Part shown: positions 13,143 through 29,672 of the stretch, in pieces | Numbering within the stretch: the first letter of the stretch is position 1 | Layout of the letters: every line of letters begins with the position of its first letter | Source: Novosphingobium sp. | GTDB taxonomy: Bacteria; Pseudomonadota; Alphaproteobacteria; Sphingomonadales; Sphingomonadaceae | Assembly (NCBI GenBank): GCA_024236215.1 | Contig: JACKKX010000001.1 | Span: 733,501 to 797,500, forward strand | Direction: 5' to 3' | Length of the DNA stretch: 64,000 nt | Position numbers and translations under genes: made by a program | The notes under the pieces: generated by a model | The model's database searches: none | What the model was told of the DNA's origin: nothing | Seen by the model: the letters and a program-made list of their open reading frames with translations, nothing else

Positions 13143-13152
13143 GTACCGGTAC
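13143..13152 (+). promoter_or_regulatory. GTACCGGTAC palindrome, site 1
   Basis: A perfect 10-bp palindrome between the GNAT-like gene and the lipoprotein gene. It ends 50 nt before ATG 13203. It is one of the motif copies spread through 13-30 kb, always upstream of exported-protein genes. Confidence 0.6.
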
Positions 13153-13202
13153 CGCCTTGCGATTGACGGTGCTGGCCAGCACGGTTGATTGATACTTTCG
13201 CG

Positions 13203-13886
13203 ATGCCTGGTTCCCGAAGCAAGAATTCCGCACTGTCGCGGCTGAAATCCCGAGCTGCGCTTGCCGCAATCGCGGGGCTTCTCCTTTCAGTTGTTTCGGC
13301 ATGCCAATCGGCAACGCCCAAATCCTTGCTTCCCGCCGACGTGAAGACGAACCCGACCGCGCATGGCGGCAATGCCGTGGCGTTCCAGCTCTCGGGACTG
13401 CCCGGTGCCGTCCGCCTCTTGGGCGCACAGCTCCATTACGAGGTCAAGAATCGTGATTGCGTGCCGATGGATCATGGGCTTGCGGTGGGCGGTGTGCGGT
13501 TGCCGCCGCAGTACGCCCTGGCAGCGTCGTTCTGGCTGGCCCCGGACAGCGCGCTGGTCGTCGAAACCCCGGATGACGCACTGATAGACGAGGATTATTT
13601 CGGTCTCGGCGTGTGCCACTGGGAGCTCGAAAGTGTGTCGCTGGCATTTGCGTCCCGGTCAGGCGCCCGCTTCGTGGCAACGCTCTCTACAAGCGAAGTT
13701 CAGAAAATGCGCGGAGGTGACATTCGGGTCATGCAGTATCTCGCCAGTGACTACGCGTCGCCTGGAAAGCCGGATCCGGCCATCTTCGGGGAGCGCCCCG
13801 GCTTCTATCCCGCTGACAAGCCGGTCTTTGCCCTCACGGCGTCTTATCGGAACATCAACGACGGCCCAAGTGGACCTATTGAATGA
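13203..13886 (+). CDS. Putative lipoprotein of unknown function
   Basis: A 227-residue protein with a lipoprotein signal: positive N-terminus, hydrophobic stretch ALAAIAGLLLSVVSAC and lipobox VSAC near residue 33. The mature part has two isolated Cys (NRDCVPMDHG, GLGVCHWELES) that could pair. No family recognised. A TTG at 13185 in the same frame is an alternative start. A GTACCGGTAC site lies upstream. Its 3' end overlaps the convergent DUF4189-type gene by 11 nt. It is the left-most member of the exported-protein cluster. Confidence 0.6.
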   Translation: MPGSRSKNSALSRLKSRAALAAIAGLLLSVVSACQSATPKSLLPADVKTNPTAHGGNAVAFQLSGLPGAVRLLGAQLHYEVKNRDCVPMDHGLAVGGVRLPPQYALAASFWLAPDSALVVETPDDALIDEDYFGLGVCHWELESVSLAFASRSGARFVATLSTSEVQKMRGGDIRVMQYLASDYASPGKPDPAIFGERPGFYPADKPVFALTASYRNINDGPSGPIE

Positions 13887-14871
13887 TCCGGTGTCGGCCC
13901 GTGCCGTAATCGTGAACGAACACGCCACTTTGGCGGCTGTCGATTGGTTCCTGCACCCTGCAACTCGTCGCATTCTGCTGATTGCATACCTTGGATGCGC
14001 GCATCTCGGCCCGCTCGACCGTCGCTTCGGCCGAAACCGCACGTCGGTCCGTATCTACCAGATAGGGCACGATGAAGCCGTTTCCGACCCAATTGGCAAC
14101 TTCGCATGCCCTGCCATTCATCGCCGCCTCGCATGCGGCAATGGCCCGGCTCTGGGCTCTAGCGAGATCGGGGTAGCCGCTGGCGACATAGAGCAGCTGG
14201 GTTTCGTTGCCCGCTTCCCAGGCAGCCGCCGCGTAGGACTTGCGGTAGCGCGCAAGATTAGGATTGTGATCGTGATCATAGGAGTTGAAGGTGACAATCA
14301 GCACGCACGGCATGACTTGCCGGGCACCGCAAGCTTCCAACGCGCGCATGCCCGCCTCGTTGGACGTTCCACCCATCGCGTAGACCAGTGATCCCGACGA
14401 ATCGCGTGCCACGCCAATTGCGGCTTCCGAAAAGCCAGCCGCCACACTGCAGCCCGATCCCATAGCGGCGGTGCACGCGGCCAGAACGTTGCGTTTGGCC
14501 GCATCCTCGGACAGAGCAGCGCCGTTCAGCCAGACATCGCCGACATCGGGATGCCAGGCCATGGCCGCAGACGTATCGACATGGACGTAGCGCGGAACGT
14601 AGGGGCCGTTTCCGGAGCCTGCGCCATCGACAGGTGCGCAAAGTGGCATAGGTGCGACGCCATTGCCGCCCGGGGTAGTTCCGACCTGATTTTCCCCGGG
14701 GCCGGGGCCATTTGGGCAAATATACTGGGCATGCGCCGGGCTCGGCGCGGCTAGCAGCAGAAGCCCGATTGCGATGATGGCTGCTGCCAGGAAAAACCGC
14801 ACGGTCGCGCCACCAAGCCCGAAAATCGGATCATCGGCATCCCCGTTCTGCGCCCCGAAAAGCCAGTTCAT
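13876..14871 (-). CDS. Secreted DUF4189-type repeat protein
   Basis: A 331-residue exported protein. A 22-residue cytoplasmic lead precedes a long signal helix (VRFFLAAAIIAIGLLLLAAP) ending AHAQ. The mature N-terminus is AQYICPNGPGPGENQVGTT...PLC, a module shared with the protein at 19650-20432. The rest holds DUF4189-like units: W-aliphatic openings (AWHPDVGDVW, AAWEAGNETQLLYVA) and Ala-rich helices ending in Cys pairs (RNVLAACTAAMGSGCSVA, MRALEACGARQVMPC, RAIAACEAAMNGRACEVA). AAAGGAA precedes ATG 14871. No enzyme motif is visible. The role is probably in the periplasm or outside the cell. Confidence 0.72.
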   Translation of the reverse strand: MNWLFGAQNGDADDPIFGLGGATVRFFLAAAIIAIGLLLLAAPSPAHAQYICPNGPGPGENQVGTTPGGNGVAPMPLCAPVDGAGSGNGPYVPRYVHVDTSAAMAWHPDVGDVWLNGAALSEDAAKRNVLAACTAAMGSGCSVAAGFSEAAIGVARDSSGSLVYAMGGTSNEAGMRALEACGARQVMPCVLIVTFNSYDHDHNPNLARYRKSYAAAAWEAGNETQLLYVASGYPDLARAQSRAIAACEAAMNGRACEVANWVGNGFIVPYLVDTDRRAVSAEATVERAEMRASKVCNQQNATSCRVQEPIDSRQSGVFVHDYGTGRHRIIQ

Positions 14872-14980
14872 TGCGTTCCTTTCAACCTTGTTTCTGGTGC
14901 TGCAAAGACCGTTTAGATTCAGGCCCGCCGAAACACCTCCATGCAATTAGACCTCTGATACAGCAAAGAAAACAGTCCCG

Positions 14981-15024
14981 GCGCACCAGTGCATCCCGGG
15001 GGGCCACGGAATGCACTGGTGTGC
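14981..15024. repeat. 14-bp inverted repeat (GCGCACCAGTGCAT)
   Basis: GCGCACCAGTGCAT at 14981-14994 is repeated inverted at 15011-15024 with one mismatch and a 16-bp spacer. The arms resemble the regional motif (CACCAGTGC versus CACCGGTAC). There is no T-tract, so an operator pair is likelier than a terminator. It lies 110 bp upstream of the DUF4189-type gene at 13876-14871. Confidence 0.5.
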
Positions 15025-15077
15025 AGGAAAGCCGATTGCCATCCCCAGGGCGGGTTTGGCCGAGATGGAAGCCATTT

Positions 15078-15085
15078 CCGGTACC
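15078..15085. promoter_or_regulatory. Degenerate CCGGTACC motif copy
   Basis: TTCCGGTACCCC sits just past the end of the broken DUF4189 gene and 207 nt upstream of the start at 14871. It matches 8 of the 10 core bases of GTACCGGTAC. At this distance, function is doubtful. Confidence 0.25.
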
Positions 15086-15113
15086 CCTATGGTGCAGCTT
15101 ATGAGTCTACGGC

Positions 15114-15497
15114 CTAGTTGAAGGACGATGGCAGGCTGCAGGCGGCATACTGGATCTGACAATGCCGTGTCATCCTGGCGCAGCTGCGCAATGCCAGCCT
15201 GCCTGCTGCTGCCAGGCTTTCGGCGTATGCGACCCCGACCTGCCTGTCGTCCCCCGTCGCTTAGGCTGCGCATTGATTTCGATAGGTAAGGCGAACCCTG
15301 CATTCGCCAGCACCGCCGCTTTCCTCGCATTGGCGCACCGCGCCCGAGACCGCCACTTCCACGCTGGGACTGCCGCGCGTGGCGCCAAACCCATTGCCGC
15401 CAAGTGCAATTGCACCCCACCTCTCCCCGGCCAGATCAGATGCAGCGAGGCCCGGCGCCAGCAGGCCCGCCGCAATGATCAGTAGATTCTTCCTCAT
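15114..15497 (-). pseudogene. DUF4189 secreted protein interrupted by an in-frame TAA
   Basis: Starting at ATG 15497 (AAAGGAAG upstream), a signal peptide (MRKNLLIIAAGLLAPGLAAS) is followed by the DUF4189 start ERWGAIALGGNGFGA and CEESGGAGECRVRLTYRNQCAA. A TAA at 15261-15263 then stops the frame at 78 residues. The same frame stays open after the TAA for 48 more codons to TAG at 15114. Those codons read GVAYAESLAAAGRLALRSC and HCQIQYAAC, the expected C-terminal half, as in the intact paralogue at 26154 (EIALRGCSRRTENCKIYY). So a single nonsense change (or an unusual readthrough) breaks an otherwise intact gene. Confidence 0.75.
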
Positions 15498-15505
15498 GGC
15501 TTCCT

Positions 15506-15533
15506 TTCGCGACGGCAAGTTCGCGACGGCAAG
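15506..15533. repeat. Tandem 14-bp duplication TTCGCGACGGCAAG
   Basis: Two perfect head-to-tail copies (15506-15519, 15520-15533) lie 9-36 nt upstream of the start of the broken DUF4189 gene. They could be a slipped-strand duplication in its leader. Confidence 0.8.
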
Positions 15534-15537
15534 GAGG

Positions 15538-15912
15538 TCAATGCGGCAACCTGCGCCGACCACCTGCTGCTTCCCGGTATCGGGTTCTGAATGCAGCGCT
15601 GAGTGGGAGACTTGCGCTCAGCAAGAGCCAGGCAAGGCCGAATGGTATGGTGCTCGACCTGCTGCGGCAGGTCAGCACGACCATGGTGGCCGTTCCTGCG
15701 CCGTCGCCCGAATCCGCGAGTTCATGGGATTTCATCGAGCCCGGCAGACACTGATCGAGCGAGAATTCCCGGCCACCCTTGCTTGTCGGAAATACCCGAG
15801 CAGCAGGATCATCCAGGTCCGATGGTGCCCACCCTCTGAGATCCGGGCTCAGATAGAGGAACCCGGCCAGCGCCAGAAGGGCCAATGCCGACAGGCTTGT
15901 CCACCTTTTCAT
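15538..15912 (-). CDS. Small two-helix membrane protein of unknown function
   Basis: A 124-residue protein starting at ATG 15912 (GAGGG upstream). It has one hydrophobic segment at residues 6-23 (SALALLALAGFLYL) and a second at about 92-112 (IPFGLAWLLLSASLPLSAAF). Between them is a periplasm-sized loop with two Cys (LDQCLPGSM, VVLTCRS). A short basic tail follows. No family recognised. It lies between the broken DUF4189 gene and the LuxR-type regulator, all leftward, so it may be in one transcript with them. Confidence 0.55.
   Translation of the reverse strand: MKRWTSLSALALLALAGFLYLSPDLRGWAPSDLDDPAARVFPTSKGGREFSLDQCLPGSMKSHELADSGDGAGTATMVVLTCRSRSSTIPFGLAWLLLSASLPLSAAFRTRYREAAGGRRRLPH
15571..15580 (-). 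promoter_or_regulatory. Degenerate motif copy upstream of the DUF4189 pseudogene
   Basis: On the minus strand ATACCGGGAA keeps 7 of 10 bases of GTACCGGTAC. It ends 73 nt before the pseudogene start, inside the 69-76 nt window seen for intact members. It is read as a decayed site. Confidence 0.35.
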
Positions 15913-16014
15913 CGCGCCCTCGCGCACCGTTCGCGTCGATGGAACGGCTCTGCGCCAGGTGCAGTGGGGGTTTCTGAGATCGGTAGTGCAAAATCCATGC
16001 GAACTCACCTGGGG

Positions 16015-16455
16015 CTAGCGGCAAGATTCCCGCTCGAGATCGCATGACGGCCTCGATGCCGATCTCGCTGCAGCCTCCTGACGGGTCGATACGCCAAGCA
16101 GACGCATGATCTGCGAGATATGGTTGCGAACGGTGAAGTGAGACAAGTCAAGTCGGCGACCAATCTGCTTGTTCGACAAGCCTGTTGCCAGCAAGGCGAG
16201 GATTTCTCTCTGTCTGCTCGTCAGATTGCACGGCTCGCGGAAGGAGCCGCATCCCGCATCGATTTGCGGCACCGCTGCGGCTCCCTCGACGAGTCTGACT
16301 TCCAGTCGAACTCCGCGGGGCAGCGCGGCCCGAATTCCTGGCAATGCCGATTGGACGGCGTCCACAAGAGCAGCGCTGCTGGCTTCGACGATCAGCCACA
16401 TGCTTGTCTTGTCGCGCGGTACAATCGTCTGCGAGGGCGATGCGGTCTCGGCCAT
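16015..16455 (-). CDS. LuxR-type HTH transcriptional regulator
   Basis: A 146-residue protein whose C-terminal half is a clear LuxR/FixJ helix-turn-helix: LTSRQREILALLATGLSNKQ, then IGRRLDLSHFTVRNHISQIM and RLLGVSTRQEAAA. The 75-residue N-terminal part (MWLIVEASSAALVDAVQSAL) looks like a shortened receiver without a visible phospho-Asp. Start ATG 16455 is preferred for domain content, though its ribosome site is poor. ATG at 16545 is an alternative. It is divergent from the LytTR regulator, so the two regulators share a short control region. Confidence 0.75.
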   Translation of the reverse strand: MAETASPSQTIVPRDKTSMWLIVEASSAALVDAVQSALPGIRAALPRGVRLEVRLVEGAAAVPQIDAGCGSFREPCNLTSRQREILALLATGLSNKQIGRRLDLSHFTVRNHISQIMRLLGVSTRQEAAARSASRPSCDLERESCR

Positions 16456-16637
16456 GAAGCGTTGCGGCAATCGCTTGTGACATCGGCGCGACGAACCCTC
16501 GACGTTTCGCAAGGCCCTATCGAAAGCTGATCTTCTCCCGTTCATGCAGCTGAGGCTAGAAGCCGCGCCGCGATCGTCGTATCCCTGAAATGACGAGTGG
16601 CGACGGGAAGGTTTTGAATGGCAGGACAATTCTACCA

Positions 16638-17432
16638 ATGGCTAGTCTGGGCAGACGAATGACTGGATTGTCTGTTCTGGTGGCCGATGACGAACCGCTT
16701 GCCCGGCGCCGACTAAGCCGCCTGCTTGGCAAAATGGACTGGGTGGGTGCCATCGCGGAGGCGGGCGATGTCGATCAGGCGTGCCGGCAGATCGCGACGA
16801 GTCGGCCCGATATTCTTGTGCTGGATATCCAGATGCCGGGCGGCACCGGCTTCGACGTGCTTGAGCGCCTTGCGCAGGCCCCGCCAGCCGTCGTGTTCGT
16901 TACGGCCTTCGATCATCATGCCCTGCGCGCCTTTGAGGCCAACGCCGTCGATTATGTCACCAAGCCGGTAGAACCTGGACGCTTCGCGGCGGCAATGGCG
17001 CGCGCGCGCGAAACCGTGAATTCGAGTTCGCAATCAGACCGGATCGCGGAGCTGCAGGAAACCGTGGCCTCACTCAAGCAGGCCTTGAACCGCAACGAAA
17101 GGCACACGCGGGACTTCTGGGTCAAAGCACAGGGAGAGCTGGTCCGCCTCGCACCCGATAGCATCCTGCACTTCCAGGCCGAACGGGACTATGTCCGGAT
17201 TTTCACGGCCGATGGCGATTACCTCTATCAGGAAAGTCTGGCTTCGCTCGAGCGGCGTCTTGATCCGTCACAGTTCATGCGCATCCATCGGGGCGCTATC
17301 GTGCGGATCGGCGCGATTGCCCGGATCAGGTCCGCGCCTTTTGGCGCCCTGATCGCCGTGCTGTCCGACGGATCGGAAGCGCGGGTTGGCCGCACCTATA
17401 CGTCGACGATCCGCGCCCGGCTGGTCGGCTGA
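16638..17432 (+). CDS. LytTR-family response regulator (AgrA/AlgR/LytR type)
   Basis: A 264-residue two-component regulator. The receiver domain (residues 11-125) has the acidic pocket VADDEP, phospho-acceptor Asp63 in LVLDIQMPGG and Lys109 in DYVTKPV. A helical linker (about 130-160) leads to a LytTR DNA-binding domain (about 165-262) with LVRLAPDSILHFQAERDYVR, RRLDPSQFMRIHRGAIVRIG and VGRTYTSTIR. ATG 16638 has AGGACA eight nt upstream; ATG 16659 is also possible. The only histidine kinase nearby is the LytS-type protein at 23059-24186, the likely partner although 5.6 kb away. LytTR domains bind short repeated sites, and the regional GTACCGGTAC motif is the obvious candidate. Confidence 0.88.
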   Translation: MASLGRRMTGLSVLVADDEPLARRRLSRLLGKMDWVGAIAEAGDVDQACRQIATSRPDILVLDIQMPGGTGFDVLERLAQAPPAVVFVTAFDHHALRAFEANAVDYVTKPVEPGRFAAAMARARETVNSSSQSDRIAELQETVASLKQALNRNERHTRDFWVKAQGELVRLAPDSILHFQAERDYVRIFTADGDYLYQESLASLERRLDPSQFMRIHRGAIVRIGAIARIRSAPFGALIAVLSDGSEARVGRTYTSTIRARLVG

Positions 17433-17438
17433 TTCTCG

Positions 17439-18996: not shown

Positions 18997-19079
18997 GGGG
19001 ATCCGCTCGTGCGACTGCCAATTGGTGAGGCAAGGGATTGTCACGATCCAACGGCTTCGACGCGGTGCATTCCGCTGCC

Positions 19080-19586: not shown

Positions 19587-19649
19587 ACCTACCTCTTCAA
19601 GATCCGAAAATCGGGCCGCCTGTCTGGGCAGGCCCGTGCCTGTACCCGA

Positions 19650-20432
19650 TCAGTTGCCGCCGTGGACGCACCGCGCCAGGGCCTCGCGCGCGGAAAGGCC
19701 TCCGGTCCATTCCGCCGCAAAAATCTTTCGGTTCCGATACTTCACCTCAAAACCTTGCCGGTCTAGCATGTTGTCTAGGAGCGGGTCGATTCCGGGCACA
19801 CCGAGCGCGACCGCCCCAAGGTCAGAGTCGGGCACGCGATAATTGTATGCCTTGACCGTCTGTGGAGCAGTGTCGCCCGTTTGCATCAAGGAGACGTTGA
19901 TTTCCCGTAACTTTTCGGGGGCAGGCACATCTTTCCCGATCAGCACCAGGAGCGCCCCAGTGACATATTCATTCGGGCCAAGTAGCTGAATCATGTTTCC
20001 GCCGCGCGAAAACAGGGCGGCACAGCCTTGGCCTGCGGCTCTATTCCTGGAATCCCGGGTGTGATCCCAACCACCATCCATATAGCGCCGATACTCCGCA
20101 GCGAACGCCGGATCGGTTCTCAACCTTTGCTGGAGTTGGTCGTAGTTGCGCGCCTGCAATTCAAAAATGGTCGTCGCGGCATTGATGCGGCCCGCCAGGG
20201 GATCGGGCATGCGCACGGTTTCCGACCCCTCGGCATCGCCGGATCCCTCGAATGACCCGTCGCTTGTGCAGAGCGGCATACCGACCATTCCGCCACCGCC
20301 ACCCGTTGTTCCAACCTGCCGTTCGCCCGGACCCGGCCCATTGGCGCAGACATATTGCGCATGGGCTGGAATAGCCGTCAGTCCTGACAGCATGAATGCC
20401 GCAAAGATGGCTGCGAGCCGTGAAATTCGCAT
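19650..20432 (-). CDS. Secreted protein with the NGPGPGE N-terminal module
   Basis: A 260-residue exported protein. After the signal (LAAIFAAFMLSGLTAIPAHA) the mature N-terminus AQYVCANGPGPGERQVGTT...PLC is the same module as in the protein at 13876-14871. A helical middle follows (ATTIFELQARNYDQLQQRLR). The C-terminal 60 residues end YRNRKIFAAEWTGGLSAREA plus LARC, which resembles the end of the protein at 28751-29557 (KTIFSGQWHDGLKARDALAR). GGAG lies before ATG 20432. A motif copy lies 95 nt upstream. Confidence 0.65.
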   Translation of the reverse strand: MRISRLAAIFAAFMLSGLTAIPAHAQYVCANGPGPGERQVGTTGGGGGMVGMPLCTSDGSFEGSGDAEGSETVRMPDPLAGRINAATTIFELQARNYDQLQQRLRTDPAFAAEYRRYMDGGWDHTRDSRNRAAGQGCAALFSRGGNMIQLLGPNEYVTGALLVLIGKDVPAPEKLREINVSLMQTGDTAPQTVKAYNYRVPDSDLGAVALGVPGIDPLLDNMLDRQGFEVKYRNRKIFAAEWTGGLSAREALARCVHGGN

Positions 20433-20527
20433 GCTCCAACTCCGGGAAACTGCGCGCGCGCTGCGCTGCCCATGGGTCCAAAAGGATCGAATATCCATTC
20501 GGCAAAATGGCATACAGCCTTGACGGC

Positions 20528-20537
20528 GAACCGGTAC
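20528..20537 (-). promoter_or_regulatory. GTACCGGTTC motif, site 2
   Basis: On the minus strand GTGTACCGGTTCGCCG. It ends 95 nt before ATG 20432, about two helical turns further than the other sites. Confidence 0.5.
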
Positions 20538-20672: not shown

Positions 20673-21161
20673 TCACTCCCGGTGTTTCGGACGACTGACT
20701 GACCCAGGAATGCCCTGTTGTGCCGCCCCTGGAGCGGCTGGCAGCGGTTCGTAGTTCTCGTTCGTAAAGCCCTGGGCCGTCCGGATTTCCAGCATGCGGC
20801 CCCTGCACTCGTAAGAGTGTTCATCCCAACTCGCCCGGTAGACGATTTGCCCGAGGTCAGGCCGGAGAATGCCATGCCCGTACCAGATGCGCGCCGAGTA
20901 GCGCGCGCGATTGCGCCCGGTGCGTTCCACGCCCTTGCTTCTGGTCTCGACGGTTACCGAATGGCGGCTTCCATCCGCGTCTACGGATTCGGGTCTGGCC
21001 AGATGCGCGTCTTCAACGGCGCGTTCTTCCAGGAAGGCGATACAAGCCTGTCTGCTGCCCATCCGCTCCCGCCGCGGGGGCATTTCGACCATACCGCTTG
21101 CACTGGCAATCGACGGGCCAAGCACGAGCGCGGTCAGGAGCGATCGGGAAATCCACTTCAC
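20673..21161 (-). CDS. Secreted protein of unknown function
   Basis: A 162-residue protein starting at GTG 21161 (GGGAG upstream). The signal is VKWISRSLLTALVLGPSIAS. The mature part begins SGMVEMPPRRERMGSRQACI and has only two Cys (RQACIAF, YECRGRM). The section RGRMLEIRTAQGFTNENYEP near the end is distinctive. No family recognised. The GTG start is supported by the motif position: a GTACCGGTGC copy ends 71 nt upstream. Confidence 0.55.
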   Translation of the reverse strand: MKWISRSLLTALVLGPSIASASGMVEMPPRRERMGSRQACIAFLEERAVEDAHLARPESVDADGSRHSVTVETRSKGVERTGRNRARYSARIWYGHGILRPDLGQIVYRASWDEHSYECRGRMLEIRTAQGFTNENYEPLPAAPGAAQQGIPGSVSRPKHRE

Positions 21162-21232: not shown

Positions 21233-21242
21233 GCACCGGTAC
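21233..21242 (-). promoter_or_regulatory. GTACCGGTGC motif, site 3
   Basis: Minus-strand CGTACCGGTGCGTCGC, a 16-bp identity with site 4. It ends 71 nt before the GTG at 21161. Confidence 0.6.
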
Positions 21243-21244: not shown

Positions 21245-22339
21245 TCAGCGCCGCGGTGCTCGAATTGCCGTCTCCCGGCGGTAGACGGTAATATAATCGA
21301 TGCTCCCGCGGCATTCGCCCATATCCGCCTCTTCGACCAGGATGAACTGCTCACCATCCCAGGCGAAAGCTTGTTCCTGCCCGCAATCGGCCAAGGCCCG
21401 ACCGCGTCCGAAGCTGTGCAGCCGCCGCTCTTTAGCATCCCAATAGGCGGAGACGACCTGCGGCAGTTCGAATTGGAGGTCATGCGGCAACAGGCGAACG
21501 GGGGCGGGGCGGACACTCTGATCCTCCCCGATCAGGAACACATAGCCTTCGCCATTGTAGGCCGAGCAATTGGCGAAAAGCAGCAGCATGGTATTGCTTT
21601 CGTCCAGCCTTGCCGAGGCCGCCTCGGGCAGCCCACTCCCCCCGGTGCCGCATCGATACCGCTCTTGCAGCGCCGCGAGCTCTCGTGCCGGAAGCCGGAC
21701 GGGTGGCCGATCGGAGGGCGGTGGCACAAGGATGAAAGGTGATGGTGGGCGCGGCGGGATCAGGATGGCAGCCCCCGGACCGCGCGCAACAAGCGCAGTG
21801 ACATTGCCGGACCGGTGCTGGTTCTCATCAATGTGACGCATGGCGGCGTTTAGCCCGCGCAAGGAGATCGCGGCCAGATAGCGGCCTTCCTCATCATATG
21901 CCTCGAGCGTGTCTCCCCGCATCAAACCGCCGATCAGACGCCCGTCAGCCGGGATGGAAATGCCGTCATCGGATACCAGTCTGGCCGCTTCGGCCGCAGA
22001 GAACACCTGGCGCTCGACGACGGTCCCGTCCTTGCCCCTCACCCGCAATTCGCGGGTGAGTGCGGGCTCGCGGCCCGTTTCGGAATCGCACAAATAGCAA
22101 GCCAGCAGCCGCATGCGCGGCTGGTCCTGCATCCCACCCTCGCGCCGCAGCGACAGGTTGAAGAGATTGTCGGCGGATGGCTCGTCCCCGGTCGCGATCT
22201 CCGCTTCGGTGGGTTCAGGGATCAATGTGGTGGCATGGCAGGCATGCTGATTGTCGCAGCCCACGATCCAATCGCGGTATGTGCGCAACTCTCCGATCGC
22301 AATGGTCGCAACCGCCGCCGCGAGCAGGTAGGCTGGCAC
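21245..22339 (-). CDS. DUF1176-type secreted protein
   Basis: A 364-residue exported protein. The start GTG 22339 has AAGGAG eight nt upstream and gives the signal VPAYLLAAAVATIAIGELRT. Next comes YRDWIVGCDNQHACHATTL, the N-terminal signature of DUF1176. The C-terminus fits the same family: FGRGRALADCGQEQAFAWDG, then FILVEEADMGECRGSIDYIT. The middle has a Pro-rich linker (PRPPSPFILVPPPS). Function of the family is unknown; it is periplasmic. The upstream motif ends 69 nt before this start. Confidence 0.78.
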   Translation of the reverse strand: MPAYLLAAAVATIAIGELRTYRDWIVGCDNQHACHATTLIPEPTEAEIATGDEPSADNLFNLSLRREGGMQDQPRMRLLACYLCDSETGREPALTRELRVRGKDGTVVERQVFSAAEAARLVSDDGISIPADGRLIGGLMRGDTLEAYDEEGRYLAAISLRGLNAAMRHIDENQHRSGNVTALVARGPGAAILIPPRPPSPFILVPPPSDRPPVRLPARELAALQERYRCGTGGSGLPEAASARLDESNTMLLLFANCSAYNGEGYVFLIGEDQSVRPAPVRLLPHDLQFELPQVVSAYWDAKERRLHSFGRGRALADCGQEQAFAWDGEQFILVEEADMGECRGSIDYITVYRRETAIRAPRR

Positions 22340-22408
22340 GGCATGTACTCCTTCGGGAAAGAAGGGCGGGTATTCCATTGGCCGATTGCCGAGACCAGCT
22401 CTCGCGAC

Positions 22409-22418
22409 GCACCGGTAC
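22409..22418 (-). promoter_or_regulatory. GTACCGGTGC motif, site 4
   Basis: Minus-strand GCGTACCGGTGCGTCGCGA. It ends 69 nt before the GTG start at 22339 and lies between the FG-GAP-like gene's stop and the DUF1176 gene. Confidence 0.6.
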
Positions 22419-22441
22419 GCAGTCCCGAACCGGGCTCCGGT

Positions 22442-23062
22442 CTAGTTGTCCAGCCCGCATGCGGACATGCCGATGCTGTCATCCCATTCGGCAAGTTCGA
22501 TCCGTTGCCCCGAAAGGGACAGCATCCTGCCATTCCTGATGCCTTGGCCTGTCAGCAGATCGAGATCGCAACTGCCTGACTGATCGTGTTCGATCGTATC
22601 ATTGAACGCATAGGTGAAACCGGCAACGAGCAGTCGGCCACCACGCCAGGAAAGGGTATAAGTGCGTTCCCAATGGCTCCGGCCAAAGGCCATATTCTCG
22701 GTATGGATCTTGATAGACCGATTTTCGAGAATTGTGATTTCCGGCTGCTGGCCGGCACTGTCGGTTCCCCAGAATCGGGCGGGAAGCAGGACAGCCCGCT
22801 TCAAGATCGGCAGATCGCGATCGCGCAGATAGACCGCAATGCCAACATCATGGGCGTCCCGGTCGCCAGGGCGGGTCAATGTGACAAGGTCCTGACGCAC
22901 ATCACCGTCGATGTCTGCCATCGCGGCATCGACGATGGCATCCTCCGCGCAGGCGGAAGTGGCCGGACCAAGCAAGGCAATCGAGCAGCCCGGCAGCAGC
23001 GCTGCTGCCAGCCGCCCCGCAAGGCGCTTGGCCGCTGGTCCAATTGGAATCAAGGTTTTCAC
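22442..23062 (-). CDS. Exported FG-GAP/VCBS-like protein coupled to the histidine kinase
   Basis: A 206-residue exported protein starting at GTG 23062. Its signal region is LAGRLAAALLPGCSIALLGP with cleavage near ACAED. The mature N-terminus has AMADIDGDVRQDLVTLTRPG, a Dx(D)GDxxxDL calcium-loop pattern of FG-GAP/VCBS-type blades. Late Cys in SGSCDLDL and MSACGLDN could pair. The start GTGA overlaps the kinase stop TGA, so it is translated with the sensor. It may be an accessory periplasmic part of the same signalling unit, which is an inference from coupling only. Confidence 0.65.
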   Translation of the reverse strand: MKTLIPIGPAAKRLAGRLAAALLPGCSIALLGPATSACAEDAIVDAAMADIDGDVRQDLVTLTRPGDRDAHDVGIAVYLRDRDLPILKRAVLLPARFWGTDSAGQQPEITILENRSIKIHTENMAFGRSHWERTYTLSWRGGRLLVAGFTYAFNDTIEHDQSGSCDLDLLTGQGIRNGRMLSLSGQRIELAEWDDSIGMSACGLDN

Positions 23063-24186
23063 GCGGTTCGCCAGGGCAACTCGAGCAAGACCCTGAACCG
23101 ATCATCCGCGACCGGGCCTGACCGAACTGCGCAAGTGTCTCCGAACCGGGCCCGCAAGCGATCGGTGACATTCTTTAGGCCGACACCAACGCCAACCGGG
23201 CTTGGTACCGCAATGTCCTTGCCCGGCATGTCGTTCGCGATTGCTATGCACAAGCGCTCGCCTTGTCGGTAGCCATGCAGATCGATCGCCACCACGCCGC
23301 GGGTCGTACCGACGCCGTGCTTGATCGCGTTTTCGATGAGGGGCTGGAGGATCAGGCTGGGAACAAGCGCTTCGGCGGCGTCTGCCTCCACGTCGATCGT
23401 GAAACTCATCCGATCGGAAAAGCGTTCCCGCTCGATGCCCAGATATTCTTCCTGCAGGGCGATCTCTTCGGCGAGAGGCACATCATGAAACGGATCAAGG
23501 GCCAGCGTGGTGCGTAGGAAGGTCGAAAGCGACAGCACCATGCGTTCGGCCTGCGTGGCTGCGCCTTCCTCGATCAGCCCGGCAATCGAATTGAGTGTAT
23601 TGAACAGGAAGTGCGGATTGATTTGATAGCGCAAGGCTCGCATCTGCGCGCCGAGCGCCTCTTCACGGATCGCCGCCAGGCGCAGCTTGCGGTCGTTGAG
23701 CTCGAAGGCAAAGACGAGCATCACGAACAGGCACGACCAGCCGAACAGGAACCCCCAGGAAATGACGACTAAGCCCCCAAAATTGTCAAGCGAACCCGGT
23801 GCGGGCGGCGGGGTCCCAAGTAGAGCCGGATAGAATTGGTGCGCCCCTGCCCAGAGGGCGGAAGCCACCATTGACACCACAAATGAAACGATGATCAAGA
23901 TCGGTAGCGAGTCTTCAGAAGTCCGAACTCGCGTCAGTCTTTCGTGTGCGAGATATACCAGATACGATATTCCCAACGCCAATACGATAATTGAAATGAA
24001 CTGGATGGCACGCAAGGCAATGAAATTCGGTGACACTTCCTCGACCGAAGACAGGAACAGCGCCACGATTACAGCTATGATCAGCAGATAAAACGCACCG
24101 AAACGTAGCGTGGCGGTCTTGATTCCCCGGAGATTCGTCGGGCCATTCCTGAACTCGTTGTTCAATTTGATGTCGTCGAGTGCCAT
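23059..24186 (-). CDS. LytS/YehU-type sensor histidine kinase
   Basis: A 375-residue membrane sensor. Four hydrophobic segments (about residues 28-48, 58-80, 95-115, 138-160) precede a cytoplasmic kinase. The phospho-acceptor is His192 in RYQINPHFLFNTLNSIAGL, the signature of the His_kinase family that partners LytTR regulators. The ATPase N box is LILQPLIENAIKHGV and the G box GVGVGLKNVTDRLRARFG. It has no extracellular sensor domain beyond the loops. The likely partner is the LytTR regulator at 16638-17432. An IS1380-type element now lies 43 bp upstream of its start and may have changed its promoter. Confidence 0.88.
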   Translation of the reverse strand: MALDDIKLNNEFRNGPTNLRGIKTATLRFGAFYLLIIAVIVALFLSSVEEVSPNFIALRAIQFISIIVLALGISYLVYLAHERLTRVRTSEDSLPILIIVSFVVSMVASALWAGAHQFYPALLGTPPPAPGSLDNFGGLVVISWGFLFGWSCLFVMLVFAFELNDRKLRLAAIREEALGAQMRALRYQINPHFLFNTLNSIAGLIEEGAATQAERMVLSLSTFLRTTLALDPFHDVPLAEEIALQEEYLGIERERFSDRMSFTIDVEADAAEALVPSLILQPLIENAIKHGVGTTRGVVAIDLHGYRQGERLCIAIANDMPGKDIAVPSPVGVGVGLKNVTDRLRARFGDTCAVRSGPVADDRFRVLLELPWRTA

Positions 24187-24225
24187 GGATTCTCCGTCTT
24201 CGCGCTGCGCCCGCTTGCAGATGCC

Positions 24226-24229
24226 TTAA
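24226..24229. repeat. Target-site duplication TTAA, left
   Basis: TTAA directly outside the left inverted repeat, matching TTAA at 25875-25878. Four bases is the duplication size expected for IS1380. Confidence 0.8.
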
Positions 24230-25874
24230 CCGCTCTTATGCACCAAGGGGTGTCTGAGCGGTAGGCGGGAGTAGCGTAAAGCTCTGTTCTGAAGTAAGAA
24301 ATTGGGTGTCTAAGCCGTCCCTGCTCCGGGACAGAAATTGCCATAGGCTACACCCGCCATGACCGACGTTACCTCAAGCTCATTTCGATTCCCAGCGGTC
24401 CAACGCAAGAAAGTCACGGCTGCCTTCGACGGCGGTCGCATCACGTCGGACGGCGGGGTTCTGCTATTGGCGCAGGCCGAGCGCGAGATGGACATCTGCA
24501 GGCAGCTGGCCACCTGCATCGCCGATCGGCGCGATCCTTCGCGGGTGGTCCACAAGCTGGATGACATCCTGCGGGCTCGGGTTCTGGCGATTGCCTGCGG
24601 CTACGAGGACGCCGACGACCTCGACGCCCTGCGTGACGATCCCGGCTTCCGCCTGGCGCTGGGCAAGCTACCGGGTTCGGGCGCGGGCCTTGCCAGCCAA
24701 CCGACGATGAGCCGCTGGGAAAACGCACCCACCACGCGCGAGCTGGCCCGCATGATGGCCGCGATGGTCGACATCTACTGCGCCAGTTATCCATCCCCGC
24801 CCGAGGCGGTGACGCTGGACATCGATGACACCTGCGATGTCGTGCACGGCTACCAGCAGTTATCGTTCTGGAACGGGCATCACGGTGAGCGCTGTTTCCT
24901 GCCGATCCACGTCTACGACACGGCAACGGGGCGGCCGGTCGCCATGCTGCTGCGCACCGGCAAGACGCCGAGCGGCGCGGAGGCCGCGGGCCATATCCGT
25001 CGCCTGGTGCGGCAGATCCAGAGGCACTGGCCCACGACCCACATCACGATCCGGGGCGACGGCCACTACGGCAGACCCGAGGTCATGAACTTCTGCGAGG
25101 CACAGGGCATCGATTATGTCTTCGGCCTGCCCACCAACGCTGTGCTGCGCGCCGATCCACAGATCGTGAAGATTGCCGATGCCTGCGCGGTCAAGCGGGC
25201 CGAGGAACAGCACGTGGTCCTGCGAAATTATGCCCAGACCCGCTACGGGGCGAAAAGCTGGAAATGCCAGCGCCGTGTCGTCGCCCGGATCGAGGCCAGC
25301 ACGCTCGGCATGGATATCCGCTACGTCGTCACCTCGCTCGAGCAGGGCTCGGCCGAGCACATCTACGACACACTCTACTGCGCCCGCGGCCAGGCCGAAA
25401 ACCTCATCAAGTTGCACAAGGCCCAGCTCGCCAGCGATCGCACGTCATGCCGATCAGCCAACGCCAATCAGATGCGGCTGATCCTGCACACCGCCGCATT
25501 CTGGCTGATGTGGCGCATCCAGCAGGCCATCCCCAAGGCAGCCGCGCTTGCCAACGCTGAGTTCGCGACCCTGCGCCTGCGGCTCCTCAAAGTCGCCGCA
25601 CGCGTCATCGAGACCGCCTCCCGCATCCGGGTCGCCTTCGCTTCCGCCTGTCCCGACGCCGCCCTGTTCCGGATCATCGCCGCCGCCCTCAGGCCCGCCC
25701 CGACATAGCCAGTGCGGCCGTGCCGCTGAACGTCCGAGCCCCTCCATCAAACCCGCAAGCCTCTCGATCCCACGCGATGAAATAGACGCAGCGGAGGCAC
25801 TCGGCCTGCTCAAACGCCCGCTGCCGCCAACGATTGATCTTCCCCAAGAACAACATCGTCACGAATAAGAGCGG
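24230..25874 (+). mobile_element. IS1380-family insertion sequence (complete, 1645 bp)
   Basis: The element is bounded by the inverted repeat CCGCTCTTAT (24230-24239) and its complement (25865-25874), with TTAA duplicated outside. It encodes one transposase. The intact ends, intact gene and exact duplication point to a recent insertion. It splits the intergenic region between the histidine kinase (leftward) and the DUF4189 gene (rightward). Confidence 0.9.
24359..25708 (+). CDS. IS1380-family transposase
   Basis: A 449-residue DDE transposase. It opens FDGGRITSDGGVLLLAQAER, typical of IS1380. Catalytic-region blocks are TLDIDDTCDVVHGYQQLSFW (first Asp), ITIRGDGHYGRPEVMNFCEA (second Asp) and YDTLYCARGQAENLIKLHKA, where the Glu of QAEN fits the third acidic residue. 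The full length is intact with no frameshift, so the element may be active. Confidence 0.93.
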   Translation: MTDVTSSSFRFPAVQRKKVTAAFDGGRITSDGGVLLLAQAEREMDICRQLATCIADRRDPSRVVHKLDDILRARVLAIACGYEDADDLDALRDDPGFRLALGKLPGSGAGLASQPTMSRWENAPTTRELARMMAAMVDIYCASYPSPPEAVTLDIDDTCDVVHGYQQLSFWNGHHGERCFLPIHVYDTATGRPVAMLLRTGKTPSGAEAAGHIRRLVRQIQRHWPTTHITIRGDGHYGRPEVMNFCEAQGIDYVFGLPTNAVLRADPQIVKIADACAVKRAEEQHVVLRNYAQTRYGAKSWKCQRRVVARIEASTLGMDIRYVVTSLEQGSAEHIYDTLYCARGQAENLIKLHKAQLASDRTSCRSANANQMRLILHTAAFWLMWRIQQAIPKAAALANAEFATLRLRLLKVAARVIETASRIRVAFASACPDAALFRIIAAALRPAPT

Positions 25875-25878
25875 TTAA
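25875..25878. repeat. Target-site duplication TTAA, right
   Basis: The right copy of the duplication flanking the IS. Confidence 0.8.
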
Positions 25879-26051
25879 CACTCACTCCCAAGCAAACCGG
25901 GCATCCCGAATGGCCCGCCTATTCTTGATTTCGGCGAAGGTGCCCAGAGCAAGCGAACTTCGCATCTTGTGCGATCTCCAGGGCCCGGATGGCTGGCGCA
26001 GCGCAGCGCACATTGGGTCCGGCACGGCGACCAGCGCAAGGCTTGCGATGC

Positions 26052-26083
26052 ACCGGTACCGAGCGGCGGAAACGAACCGGTAC
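26052..26083 (+). promoter_or_regulatory. Double motif, site 5 (ACCGGTACC and GAACCGGTAC)
   Basis: ACCGGTACC at 26052-26060 and GAACCGGTAC at 26074-26083, a 24-bp period. The second copy ends 70 nt before ATG 26154. This is the only clear tandem pair, as expected for a LytTR dimer site. Confidence 0.6.
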
Positions 26084-26153
26084 GCTGCCGCAGGATGACC
26101 TTGCCGATCAAGGCATGCCAATCTGGACCACGTTCGCGCTGGAGTCTTGACCG

Positions 26154-26645
26154 ATGAAGTCACCCCTGTTGTTCGCGCTGTTTCTCGCCTTCGGCATGAC
26201 CACGGCTGCCCATGCCCAATGCCGCGTCGGCTCGGGCCCTGAATTCGGCGATGGGATACCTTACTGCTCGGATCTGCAAGCGCAGGATGATCCGGTCGAG
26301 CCTCGAAGCCCCCAGATCGACGTTGCACCTCTCCAGTTGCCGTCACTGTGGGGCGCCATTGCCATTGACCCGCAGAGTGCTGCGGGCGGCGTCGGAGTAT
26401 CGAGCGGCATGCCGAGCCGGCGGGTCGCGGAAATCACGGCACTGCGGCAGTGCCGGGAAACAGGCGGCGGCCCAACCTGCAGGGTTGAAGTCTCCTATGG
26501 CAATCAATGTGCGGCCCTCGCGTGGGGCGATCACTACTACCATACCGCTTACGGCCCGTCAGTGGACGAGGCATCCGAAATAGCACTGCGCGGCTGCTCG
26601 AGAAGGACCGAGAACTGCAAGATATACTATTCCAATTGCACCTAG
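26154..26645 (+). CDS. Secreted DUF4189 protein (intact paralogue)
   Basis: A 163-residue exported protein: signal MKSPLLFALFLAFGMTTAAHA, then a Cys-containing lead QCRVGSGPEFGDGIPYCSDL. The DUF4189 domain runs from LWGAIAIDPQSAAGG through ALRQCRETGGGPTCRVEVSY, NQCAALAWGDHYY and EIALRGCSRRTENCKIYYSN. Eight Cys follow the signal peptide. It serves as the reference for the broken copy at 15114-15497. A double motif lies upstream. Confidence 0.8.
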   Translation: MKSPLLFALFLAFGMTTAAHAQCRVGSGPEFGDGIPYCSDLQAQDDPVEPRSPQIDVAPLQLPSLWGAIAIDPQSAAGGVGVSSGMPSRRVAEITALRQCRETGGGPTCRVEVSYGNQCAALAWGDHYYHTAYGPSVDEASEIALRGCSRRTENCKIYYSNCT

Positions 26646-26655
26646 GCTTAGACCG

Positions 26656-27327
26656 CTAGCGACGCCAGCGAATATCCTCCTGCAAGCGCCAGCAGTCTTG
26701 CGTCGGGTGGAACAGCAATTGCCCATCTGCTTCCGGGTGCGTGCCAGCCGGAAGCGCCTTGCCATCGGTGCCGAGGATATTGCCGAGATCATCGCCGCCA
26801 TCCGACTGCCCGTCGTAATGCACACGCGCCCATTCGACCGAGTAGTCGTCGTTCTGGCTCTGGTTGAACTGGAGATCGAGGTATTCTCCCTCGTCGCCAG
26901 CCCTCAGCGGTCGCGTCGGCTTGTAGTAGAAATCGACCTGCGTGACCGGGAAGTCGCCATAGCTGCCGGAGGGTACCTGCCGGGTGGAAATCACATTGCC
27001 CCGGCCGTCGAGCGTAGCAACCTCGATCATCGGCGCGCTGTATTTCTGCCGCACCGCGCTGGATATCGCCATGGCCGTGAAGAACTCATTGAAATCGCTA
27101 TTGGCACAGGCCCTGCGCGCCATCTCCAGCGCATTGCGATCCATTTCGCTTGGTCTCGGCAGATCGGGCCCGGCGAGTTCGGGCGCGCCTGCCCCCGGCT
27201 CGGCGCCGACTGCGGATCGGTGTGGCGGGCTCTCGGCGGATGCACCACTCGCTTCGTCACAGGCGGCCAGGATCCCCGAAGCCAGGCCACAGATTGCAAC
27301 TGCCTTGAATACATGCCTCGCCCGCAA
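26656..27327 (-). CDS. Putative lipoprotein of unknown function
   Basis: A 223-residue protein. The best start is TTG 27327 with GAGGGAG eight nt upstream; it gives a lipoprotein signal FKAVAICGLASGILAAC (lipobox LAAC). The mature part starts with a disordered Ala/Pro/Gly stretch of about 45 residues, then a globular region (MARRACANSDFNEFFTAMAI, YSAPMIEVATLDGRG, VTQVDFYYKPTRPLR, CWRLQEDIRW). No family recognised. The stop is 10 nt from the convergent DUF4189 gene. It shares a motif site with the divergent SHOCT gene. Confidence 0.6.
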   Translation of the reverse strand: MRARHVFKAVAICGLASGILAACDEASGASAESPPHRSAVGAEPGAGAPELAGPDLPRPSEMDRNALEMARRACANSDFNEFFTAMAISSAVRQKYSAPMIEVATLDGRGNVISTRQVPSGSYGDFPVTQVDFYYKPTRPLRAGDEGEYLDLQFNQSQNDDYSVEWARVHYDGQSDGGDDLGNILGTDGKALPAGTHPEADGQLLFHPTQDCWRLQEDIRWRR

Positions 27328-27393
27328 AACGGTTACTCCCTCTGGTCGCCGCAACACTACCCTGCACTCCCTTGGGGCGTGAATACGCCAGGA

Positions 27394-27403
27394 GTACTGG
27401 TAC
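27394..27403. promoter_or_regulatory. GTACTGGTAC motif, shared divergent site 6
   Basis: One mismatch from the palindrome. It ends 69 nt before ATG 27473 on the plus strand and 66 nt before TTG 27327 on the minus strand, so it could serve both genes. Confidence 0.55.
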
Positions 27404-27472
27404 GTCTTGCCGCCTGTCGCGCCCGAGCAACCTAACTAGAACCGGCATCGTGCAGTGGCGGGAAGTGAGACA

Positions 27473-28486
27473 ATGACTGCGGATGACCCCCTTAGCCGTC
27501 TCGAAAGGTTGGCAAAACTCCATGAATCCGGAGCCCTGAACGACGTAGAGTTCGAGCGCGAAAAGGCGTTGCTCCTCCGGCCCGGAGATGACCAGATCGT
27601 GCATGCGAACGGGAACGAAATTCCGACTGCTTCCGCGAGCAACCCCGAGGCCGGGTCAAAACGAAAACGGCGGTGGCCGTGGCTGCTAGTGCCAGCTGGA
27701 ATTCTTGCCGGCCTTGGTGGCTGGGCGCTGGCCGATCGGTCTGGCGATCCATCCGGAGCCCCCCAGGTCGCCAGGGCGGCCTCCTCCGAAAGCAACCGGC
27801 AATGGTCACCTGGATCCGTGCTGCCCAAAGCTTCCGATCGCTCCGCCATTCGATCACTACCCCAACAGCGCCAAGTCGATCTGGCGTTCGACGCCGTGTT
27901 CGGACTGGGTGAGCGTGAGATTCGTGTGACTGAAGACGCTGCCTATTCCTATGCCAAAGGCGTTGTCGTCTGGACGGAGTTTGGCCCCGTTCTGATCGTT
28001 GAAGGCAGCGGTGAGCCCTATCCTCCTGCGCTGGGGACACTGGGCATTTTCTACCTGCGCGAGCTGCCCGGAATGAAGTTCGAGGAGGCCCGCCGCTGGC
28101 CGGATGCCGTAACTGGCAGCATCATGGGCAATCCGCCCCAATGGCGCATCCGCAATGACATTTCGGATCATGCGGTGATCGAGTCCACCGGAGGCGGCGT
28201 CTGGCAAGGCTATGCCTGCGATTCCAAAACGCTGACGGAGCTGACTCAAGACGGCCCGCGATCGCTTGTTTCCTTCGATTCCCACTACGACAGCTCCGGC
28301 GCGATCGAAGAGGGTTATCAGTCCCTTGACGGCACGATCGTCAATGTCGTGCGCAACCGCTCATTCGATGTCCGTTTCACCGGCACCCGGACCATCACCC
28401 AGCACTTCGAGCGAAAAGGTGCGGCCTATGTCCGCGCCCCGCATGCCGGCAAAGTGATGGACAACAACGCGATCCCGACCTGTTGA
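27473..28486 (+). CDS. SHOCT-motif membrane-anchored protein with an extracytoplasmic domain
   Basis: A 337-residue protein. Residues about 5-35 (PLSRLERLAKLHESGALNDV then EFEREKALL) match the SHOCT motif. One membrane segment follows a basic stretch (KRKRRWPWLLVPAGILAGLG, about 64-86). The rest, about 250 residues, would face the periplasm. It holds QVDLAFDAVFGLGEREIRVT and FYLRELPGMKFEEARRWPDA, and its only Cys are in GYACDS and at the last residue. An earlier GTG at 27455 is possible. Function is unknown. Confidence 0.65.
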   Translation: MTADDPLSRLERLAKLHESGALNDVEFEREKALLLRPGDDQIVHANGNEIPTASASNPEAGSKRKRRWPWLLVPAGILAGLGGWALADRSGDPSGAPQVARAASSESNRQWSPGSVLPKASDRSAIRSLPQQRQVDLAFDAVFGLGEREIRVTEDAAYSYAKGVVVWTEFGPVLIVEGSGEPYPPALGTLGIFYLRELPGMKFEEARRWPDAVTGSIMGNPPQWRIRNDISDHAVIESTGGGVWQGYACDSKTLTELTQDGPRSLVSFDSHYDSSGAIEEGYQSLDGTIVNVVRNRSFDVRFTGTRTITQHFERKGAAYVRAPHAGKVMDNNAIPTC

Positions 28487-28750
28487 AGGCGCGCGAAATT
28501 GGATCGCTCACTGCCTTGCATGGTCCGCCATCGTCGCATTCTGCCTGCAATGTCCGGGCTGAGAAGACCCACAGAGACATGCCGGATTGTCCAAGCCGTG
28601 TTGCACTATGGGACTACGCTGCAATGGTCATCCGGCCTTCCTTTTGCAAAGATCTTTCATGACACGCGATCGATCCGATGCTCTATCGCGGCACTTGCAT
28701 GCCCCGGCTCCGGCACCGATGATCGCACAATGGAGTGGATGGAGCCCCGC

Positions 28751-29557
28751 ATGAACCTCTCGATCAAGTTTCGGAATGGAAATCTCGTGCGTATCTTTCT
28801 GGCATTGCTAACTTTCTGTCTTTGGCCGCAGGCCGCACGGGCAGATCACCTGTGTGCGGGACGATCAAACGAATACACCGTCACAGAAGTCTACGATGAA
28901 TTCGGCGGCGTCGTGGAAGCGTGGTGCGAGTGGGGTTCTGACGGCGCAGAAAGTGCAGCGGCGATGCGATACTACTCGCCCGAAGAGTGGAAAGCATTCG
29001 CCGAGCATGGGGCAGAAGTCGAGGCTGCCAACGCGCAAGAGCGGATTCTGGCGGGGAAGCGATACCGCCAGCTTCAGGAAGGCGTATGGTTCATGCCAGG
29101 CGAGGAGCCCTTTGCCGGCTGGTCGTCTGGATCGACATCGACGACACGCCCCGGCACGCGCGGACCGGAAACGGGCGGCAGTTGTACGGTCAGCTTTTGG
29201 ACACTCGACGGCGCGGTGACCTTGTCTGCACCCGGCGGGAGAAACGGCGTCGCGGTGATCAGCTACATGGGATACACCATCCCAGCACCGGACAAGACCG
29301 GAAAGCGCAAGTTTTCCTTGACCCAATCCGGCGCCACGCAGACCGTCACAGCAACGATTTCGAAGGTCGGACTTGGCAAAAGAAAACAGGGCATGGTGAC
29401 TTTTGCCGTGCCGAGCGGGAATATTCTGGTCGGAGCGATCGAGGATGTGCAGGATTATCGCCTGGCCGAAAAAGGCAAGACGATCTTTTCCGGCCAATGG
29501 CATGATGGGCTGAAAGCCCGTGACGCACTCGCCCGATGCCTTGCGCGACATCCATAG
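28751..29557 (+). CDS. Secreted protein with a C-terminal module shared within the cluster
   Basis: A 268-residue exported protein starting at ATG 28751 (GGAG six nt upstream). The signal is LVRIFLALLTFCLWPQAARA. Early Cys are in DHLCAG and EAWCEWG. A Thr/Ser/Gly linker (GSTSTTRPGTRGPETGG) separates a C-terminal domain of about 120 residues that begins SCTVSFWTLDGAVTLSAPGG and ends KTIFSGQWHDGLKARDALAR. That ending resembles the end of the protein at 19650-20432. No GTACCGGTAC copy is evident upstream. Function is unknown. Confidence 0.6.
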   Translation: MNLSIKFRNGNLVRIFLALLTFCLWPQAARADHLCAGRSNEYTVTEVYDEFGGVVEAWCEWGSDGAESAAAMRYYSPEEWKAFAEHGAEVEAANAQERILAGKRYRQLQEGVWFMPGEEPFAGWSSGSTSTTRPGTRGPETGGSCTVSFWTLDGAVTLSAPGGRNGVAVISYMGYTIPAPDKTGKRKFSLTQSGATQTVTATISKVGLGKRKQGMVTFAVPSGNILVGAIEDVQDYRLAEKGKTIFSGQWHDGLKARDALARCLARHP

Positions 29558-29660
29558 GGTACAGCAGCAAGCTTCCGTCTGGGCATCAAACTGTAGGGAT
29601 CGCTTTCGCCCACTTCGGTCCTGGGCGCAGCGCCGAAACGCCAGGCCATTGGGGCTGAAG

Positions 29661-29672
29661 CGTACCGGTACG
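29661..29672 (+). promoter_or_regulatory. CGTACCGGTACG perfect palindrome, site 7
   Basis: The best copy in the window: a 12-bp perfect palindrome within GCGTACCGGTACGTTGCGA. The 10-bp core ends 76 nt before ATG 29748. Confidence 0.65.

Follow-up and report, generated by a model that had tools for sequence, protein, structure and literature searches.

A ten-nucleotide palindrome, GTACCGGTAC, recurs before genes for exported or membrane-anchored proteins in the window studied here, a stretch of 64,000 nucleotides from Novosphingobium sp. (assembly GCA_024236215.1, contig JACKKX010000001.1, positions 733,501 to 797,500). The motif and its spacing are conserved in relatives, and a separate cis element, an array of four direct repeats, stands before a small gene of the LuxR/GerE type (here luxR) in the same cluster, so that each element has its own genes behind it. 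On this sequence evidence, we consider it probable that the small LuxR/GerE-type protein is the reader of GTACCGGTAC, at the end of a two-step cascade running from a kinase to a LytTR response regulator, from there to luxR, and finally to the exported proteins. The product would probably be an extracytoplasmic (cell-envelope) response.

In the proposed cascade, the membrane histidine kinase (23059-24186) would phosphorylate the LytTR response regulator (16659-17432), which would then turn on luxR by binding the four tandem repeats (16591-16663) that lie immediately in front of its promoter. The LuxR protein (16015-16545, minus strand) would in turn bind GTACCGGTAC, its proposed operator, which often lies about 70 nt before the putative starts of exported or membrane-anchored genes (DUF4189, DUF1176 and several unnamed families). 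It would most likely activate these targets rather than repress them.

The palindrome in the window and in its own genome

Eight copies of GTACCGGTAC with at most one mismatch fall within 16.5 kb of the window, and a check of the sequence places their cores at 13143, 20528, 21233, 22409, 26050, 26074, 27394 and 29662. Between 13000 and 30000, 8 sites are present where 0.31 would be expected, and the remaining 47 kb holds none (0.43 expected). A preliminary description of this DNA had reported the palindrome before seven gene starts; all seven gaps are exact (50, 95, 71, 69, 70 when counted from 26074, 69 and 76 nt), and the longer context that it described as shared between sites, CGTACCGGTGCGTCGC or CGTACCGGTACGTTGC, is present in the sequence. 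It had also suggested a weight-matrix scan. With a matrix built from the gene-facing sites of 27 related loci (described below), the window's own sites included, nine sites in the 64 kb score above 13, and the next-best place scores 9.4. The ninth site, GCACCAGTGC at 14983, scores 16.2 and lies upstream of the DUF4189 gene 13876-14871 (minus strand). The sites, given without strand, are as follows.

13143..13152: palindrome GTACCGGTAC, gap of 50 nt to 13203
14983..14992: ninth, weaker site GCACCAGTGC, from the weight matrix
20528..20537: site GAACCGGTAC, gap of 95 nt to 20432
21233..21242: site GCACCGGTAC, gap of 71 nt to 21161
22409..22418: site GCACCGGTAC, gap of 69 nt to 22339
26050..26059: site GCACCGGTAC, distal member of a pair 24 bp apart
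26074..26083: site GAACCGGTAC, gap of 70 nt to 26154
27394..27403: site GTACTGGTAC, common to the divergent genes 27357 (minus) and 27473 (plus)
29662..29671: palindrome GTACCGGTAC, gap of 76 nt to 29748

An even spread over the genome, which the preliminary description had named as counting against a regulon, is not what we see. The whole genome (3,083,015 bases) has 30 places with at most one mismatch and 8 of them lie inside the 16.5 kb, for which a uniform spread gives 0.16 by simple arithmetic; 14 of the 22 places outside the cluster are inside coding-like frames, as judged by a crude composition filter. Exact copies number three, two of them in the cluster. The third (L003) stands 69 nt before the gene of an 84-aa protein with a signal-peptide-like N-terminus, which by eye resembles the protein behind the paired sites of L088 (see below).

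The genes and other elements of the cluster are listed next, 'exported' meaning that signal-peptide-like or membrane-spanning stretches were judged by eye. The LuxR-type gene at 16015 and the divergent lipoprotein-like gene 26656-27357 (minus strand) were absent from the preliminary description.

13203..13886, plus: lipoprotein-like target gene; no match to a Pfam family; its L119 homologue lacks a site
13876..14871, minus: exported DUF4189 gene (4.7e-15), target via the ninth site; start picked by eye
16015..16545, minus: LuxR/GerE-type helix-turn-helix (HTH) protein without receiver domain (GerE 6.1e-17), proposed palindrome reader
16553..16558, minus: luxR -10-like box TAGCCT, following the last repeat at 32 nt
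16591..16663, minus: four direct repeats, spacing 21/20/21, proposed LytTR operator (array scoring)
16659..17432, plus: LytTR response regulator with receiver and LytTR domains (Response_reg 3.1e-23, LytTR 3.9e-20); start picked by eye
19650..20432, minus: exported target gene; site 20528, gap 95
20673..21161, minus: exported target gene; site in 7 of 14 family copies examined
21245..22339, minus: DUF1176 target gene (DUF1176 6e-49)
23059..24186, minus: histidine kinase (His_kinase PF06580, HATPase_c), proposed LytTR partner
26154..26645, plus: exported DUF4189 target gene (DUF4189 6.3e-21)
26656..27357, minus: lipoprotein-like target gene facing away from 27473; 11 of 13 family copies examined have a site
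27473..28486, plus: membrane-anchored SHOCT-like target gene (SHOCT just under its cut-off); gap 69
29748..30335, plus: exported target gene; 5 of 6 family copies without a site

Conservation and spacing of the palindrome in relatives

Relatives were drawn from a LuxR-alignment scan of 84,980 species genomes, from which the best 80 of 409 loci were taken. The set of 27 loci consists of the window stretch 8001-34000, L037 and 25 of these best 80, the rule being the presence of the LuxR gene together with a kinase and a LytTR gene; L110 and L115 were admitted for their cluster genes although their stretches lack a LytTR gene. A copy of L037 (L109) and the Sphingopyxis microcysteis locus (L038, the same as L125, with two sites) were excluded. 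The record titles of the 27 name Sphingopyxis, Novosphingobium, Bradyrhizobium, Bosea, Methylosinus, Methylocystis, Rhizobium, Paracoccus, Fuscibacter, Pinisolibacter and others, genera that we take to be assigned to several orders of Alphaproteobacteria, and many of the loci carry homologues of the window's exported proteins.

Among all 1024 palindromic 10-mers, GTACCGGTAC ranks top in the 27 loci, with 81 sites seen against 4.5 expected at no more than one mismatch (z score 35.9; runner-up palindrome 11.8), the 81 not being independent since several Sphingopyxis loci are close relatives. At least one site is found in 26 of the 27 loci. Leaving out the window gives 73 against 4.2. The 13 loci not titled as sphingomonads, a cleaner subset, hold 36 sites against 2.0 expected, or 33 against 1.9 without L110, whose title names no order; the 25 loci from the scan hold 67 against 4.1, or 60 against 3.7 when L110 and L115 are dropped. 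No excess appears in the remaining 53 of the best 80 loci (15 against 14.7), and 8 sites against 13.8 remain in 49 loci once L136, L143, L151 and L162, with their 7 sites, are set aside; all of the best 80, unselected, give 90 against 19.2. Over 149 genomes of the family, exact copies are most numerous in the metagenome-assembled genome (MAG) of L037 (6), followed by Sphingopyxis microcysteis (4) and the window's own genome (3), the others having 0-3. The L037 MAG also contains L088, where two exact palindromes 16 bp apart (7200-7225) lie between divergent genes for exported-looking proteins. Locus L162, from a Sphingomonadales MAG, has sites at 8969 and 18285, one of them exact and one 67 nt before a LuxR frame; its stretch has a LuxR homologue and neither a LytTR gene nor a kinase.

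The distance to the gene is also conserved. In the 27 loci, a homology-supported start codon follows 30-130 nt behind 38 of the 81 sites, compared with 101 of 1330 for palindromes made from permuted half-sites. Gaps of 60-79 nt account for 21 of 65, where intergenic positions would give about 11%; start codons were assigned by a script and may be off by some codons. For DUF1176 the gap is 69 nt in all three loci (the window, L111 and L115), and the start codons (GTG, TTG and GTG, respectively) fall at the same point of the protein. The SHOCT-like gene has a gap of 69 in the window and in its L037 orthologue (58% identical), and in the 26656 family 8 of the 11 copies with a site have it at 63-80 nt. 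Sites are also found in 7 of 14 copies of the 20673 family, 6 of 12 of the 26154-type DUF4189 genes, 1 of 4 of the 13876-type DUF4189 genes and 3 of 7 of the 15538 family. The motif therefore appears to stand before orthologous targets at a fixed distance across genomes for DUF1176 (3/3) and the 26656 family (11/13), the other families being mixed. That the exported proteins form one regulon, as had been proposed, is supported by the conservation of motif, spacing and several target families across genomes.

Among gene-facing readings, 14 of 53 have the hexamer TANNNT 33-34 nt behind the core, against 10 of 109 other readings. In 41 of the 81 sites a TTG flanks the core at 10-11 nt on one side or both, about equally often in gene-facing readings (15/53) and in others (28/109), and this outer TTG may be a peripheral operator element and not a -35 box.

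The direct-repeat array before luxR

Between luxR and the kinase/LytTR genes lies the second conserved element, built of repeats such as GCCGTTCGTC and GCCATTGGTAG. It is an array of four direct repeats like GCCRTTSGTMG, found upstream of luxR in 27/27 loci. A scan with a looser cut-off gave 668 matches where a single resample gave 322; its place was taken by a stricter one, in which four repeats at 20-21 bp were scored over whole loci with a consensus read from the same 27 loci. By this scoring, the best array of each locus, on the luxR strand, sits before luxR in all 27, with a spacing of 21/20/21 in 25 loci and 20/21/20 in two. Scores are 32-40 of 44 against 27-32 in three resamples per locus; the lowest arrays (L133 and L141, 32) touch the control range but have the same location. 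Ten loci with LytTR and kinase genes and no LuxR solo, which did not contribute to the consensus, have their best array beside the kinase or LytTR gene in eight cases, the test having failed in L087 and L105, which both score 30.

The two cis elements keep apart. No palindrome occurs within 800 nt before the HTH codons of luxR in any of the 27 loci, and palindromes near kinase starts (2/29) or LytTR starts (1/26) are few. Conversely, LytTR-type repeats were not seen before the exported genes, in that the best array always precedes luxR; single weak repeats there were not searched for. Eighteen of the 27 loci have a TANNNT hexamer 30-32 nt behind the last repeat, and 16 of them (all except L114 and L119) have an ATG 7-9 nt beyond it; this is a raw count without a control, and close Sphingopyxis-like relatives make up 8 of the 18. 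In the window, the ATG at 16545 is 7 nt behind the TAGCCT box, giving a protein of 176 residues from the chosen start. This placement of TANNNT and ATG suggests that the luxR promoter lies immediately behind the array, that the transcript has hardly any leader, and that it begins at the ATG or beside it.

The LytTR operators printed in one account have repeats of 9-11 nt separated by spacers of 11-13 nt (PMC4847170), and AlgR is described as binding the core CCGTTCGTC (PMC4064291), which is present in arrays before luxR, for example those of L113, L114, L118, L119 and L124. In 27/27 loci the array has the form of a LytTR operator, with luxR as the predicted LytTR-bound target.

The probable reader of the palindrome and the possible wider module

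The three regulators lie within the cluster, and luxR adjoins the LytTR gene on the opposite strand; it is divergent from LytTR or from a LytTR-adjacent kinase in the window, L037, L038, L098, L100 and L101. A kinase adjoins LytTR in the last five of these; that of the window lies apart from it. Of the LytTR regulator and LytS-type kinase named in the preliminary description, the regulator has the receiver and LytTR domains of such a two-component system, with a kinase of the His_kinase family nearby, and the kinase assignment stands as well (His_kinase PF06580, HATPase_c); the LytS-type sensor domain found no Pfam match. The LuxR protein matches neither a receiver nor an autoinducer-binding domain in Pfam, and its N-terminal portion, some 107 residues long, shows little conservation. 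NCBIfam models of MadR, EpsA, NarL and others match only its HTH part, all far under their cut-offs. The LuxR protein is found at E 1e-12 or better in 4 of 149 sampled genomes of the family, its own among them, and LytTR orthologues at E 1e-60 or better in 15 of 397 genomes. A search of plasmids with the LuxR protein gave 134 records, none covering 80% of the query; the 20 matches listed span part of it, and three records show 60-80% identity.

Further LuxR-type proteins accompany some of the relatives. A receiver-GerE protein lies beside the kinase and LytTR in L143 (3233-3985, a Brevundimonas MAG) and in L151 (8981-10240), and it is a possible ancestor of the receiver-less LuxR. Sphingopyxis loci have a second LuxR-type regulator with a palindrome near its start (L038 8441-9217, L098 15607-16482 and L100 4846-6126), that of L038 being a receiver-GerE protein by Pfam.

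We attribute the array to LytTR and the palindrome to LuxR mainly because the array precedes luxR and has the published form of a LytTR operator, while the palindrome precedes many exported genes. The competing idea, that of the preliminary description, is direct control of the exported genes by LytTR through its own binding to GTACCGGTAC; the LytTR gene is in the same cluster and in 25/27 loci. Against it stands the conserved element of LytTR-operator form, which is unlike the palindrome and precedes luxR; since the cluster holds a GerE protein as well, control by LytTR is most likely indirect, via luxR. The loci without a LuxR solo likewise argue against direct binding, because the array is kept in 8/10 while the palindrome is at chance (2 seen, 1.6 expected). 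The Rhizobium MAG of L115 favours LuxR as reader too. Its locus has luxR, target homologues and four palindromes and no LytTR gene, and the best LytTR of this MAG, 48% identical, is on another stretch (L189), a kinase/LytTR locus with no palindrome and no array scoring at least 32; the caveats are that it is a MAG and that its luxR keeps the array (score 35). Taken together, direct binding by LytTR seems unlikely to us. We give slightly less credence still to a third regulator, encoded elsewhere, that would read the palindrome, the linkage of luxR and LytTR to the targets having some other cause. Nothing positive speaks for it; loci retrieved with LuxR show an excess of the palindrome where the cluster is present (the 27) and none in the remaining 53, and a compact palindrome is a fitting site for a dimer of a GerE-type protein.

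The direction of control is a separate matter. LuxR might be a repressor at these sites, with LytTR working against or with it, a variant that shares much of its ground with the cascade and that we regard as improbable. Sequence does not reveal the sign of regulation, and the evidence does not establish a -35 box behind the site; in those cases that show a -10-like box, 33-34 nt behind the core, the palindrome would lie upstream of the -35 region. Activators usually bind there, and activation is favoured for this reason. Finally, some targets are paralogous DUF4189 genes, which might suggest chance or a duplicated promoter feature of one gene cluster, but unrelated target families share the site, the 13 loci not titled as sphingomonads hold 36 sites against 2.0 expected, and the DUF1176 gap of 69 nt is kept in three loci. 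We find this explanation barely credible.

Several points weigh against the cascade with LuxR as reader and have to be set beside the evidence for it. The LuxR and LytTR genes occur together in 25/27 loci, so their co-occurrence alone cannot separate the two proteins, and LytTR sites can be inverse repeats (PMC4847170). The ten luxR-less loci show no target genes either in the phmmer listing, which makes their lack of the palindrome weak evidence. Locus L114 (Paracoccus limosus) has the regulators and target homologues and no site with at most one mismatch; 7 of the 27 loci have a single site, some of them intragenic (L119 and L141), as by chance. At the level of single families, the SHOCT-like gene has a site in 2 of 6 copies and none in the four others, and the 29748 (1/6) and 28499 (4/10) families are mixed. 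A joint -35/-10 pattern behind the palindrome failed, being present in 3 of 53 gene-facing readings and 12 of 109 others. The 27 loci were chosen by gene content from a table that also displayed motif counts, and the LuxR search patterns lie within the recognition region, so that the constancy of this region is partly imposed.

Around the cluster, a transposase gene (24359-25708; DDE_Tnp_1_4, 1.5e-168) separates the kinase from the DUF4189 gene, and to the right lies a prophage-like run (34606-48161) with a Phage_capsid protein (46836-48161) and large proteins that resemble tail proteins by eye.

Known kinds of system include LytTR pairs, LuxR-type regulators and cascades. The kinase/LytTR pair resembles AlgZ/AlgR of Pseudomonas aeruginosa, whose AlgR core CCGTTCGTC recurs in the arrays described here (PMC4064291), but the four repeats at 21/20/21 before luxR, the targets and the second regulator are different. 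Tandem direct repeats with 10-13-nt spacers are also described for the operators of YpdB, RcoM1 and CoxC (PMC4847170, PMC11347149), with two or three repeats rather than four and with no second-tier regulator mentioned in the parts of these accounts that treat them; most LytTR regulators are stated there to bind upstream of -35 and to activate. The LuxR protein shares the GerE helix-turn-helix (6.1e-17) with the LuxR/NarL/FixJ family; by Pfam, it differs from NarL and FixJ in having no receiver domain and from quorum-sensing LuxR proteins in having no autoinducer-binding domain. LuxR402 of Novosphingobium sp. HR1a is likewise reported to be a LuxR solo affecting the cell envelope (PMC10413115). 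At 291 residues with a partly conserved acyl-homoserine-lactone domain, against 176 residues here, it is ruled out as a known form of the window's regulator. Among the matches listed in openly licensed literature, we found no description of this combination, operator or regulon, and a search for the 10-mer GTACCGGTAC listed no title on a bacterial transcription regulator.

In summary, there is about an even chance, in our judgement, that these loci represent one module spread across several orders of Alphaproteobacteria, with a fixed cascade of kinase, LytTR and receiver-less LuxR, a promoter code of two words (the LytTR repeats and GTACCGGTAC), a changing set of exported proteins, and transfer as an island between lineages. 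In L037 (12550-14202, a Sphingomonadales MAG), a phage-type integrase lies directly behind LytTR, which would fit such transfer. The model predicts which protein binds which DNA word. It may also offer a handle, at the level of the promoter, on exported families without known function (DUF4189, DUF1176 and others) that are seemingly switched on together.

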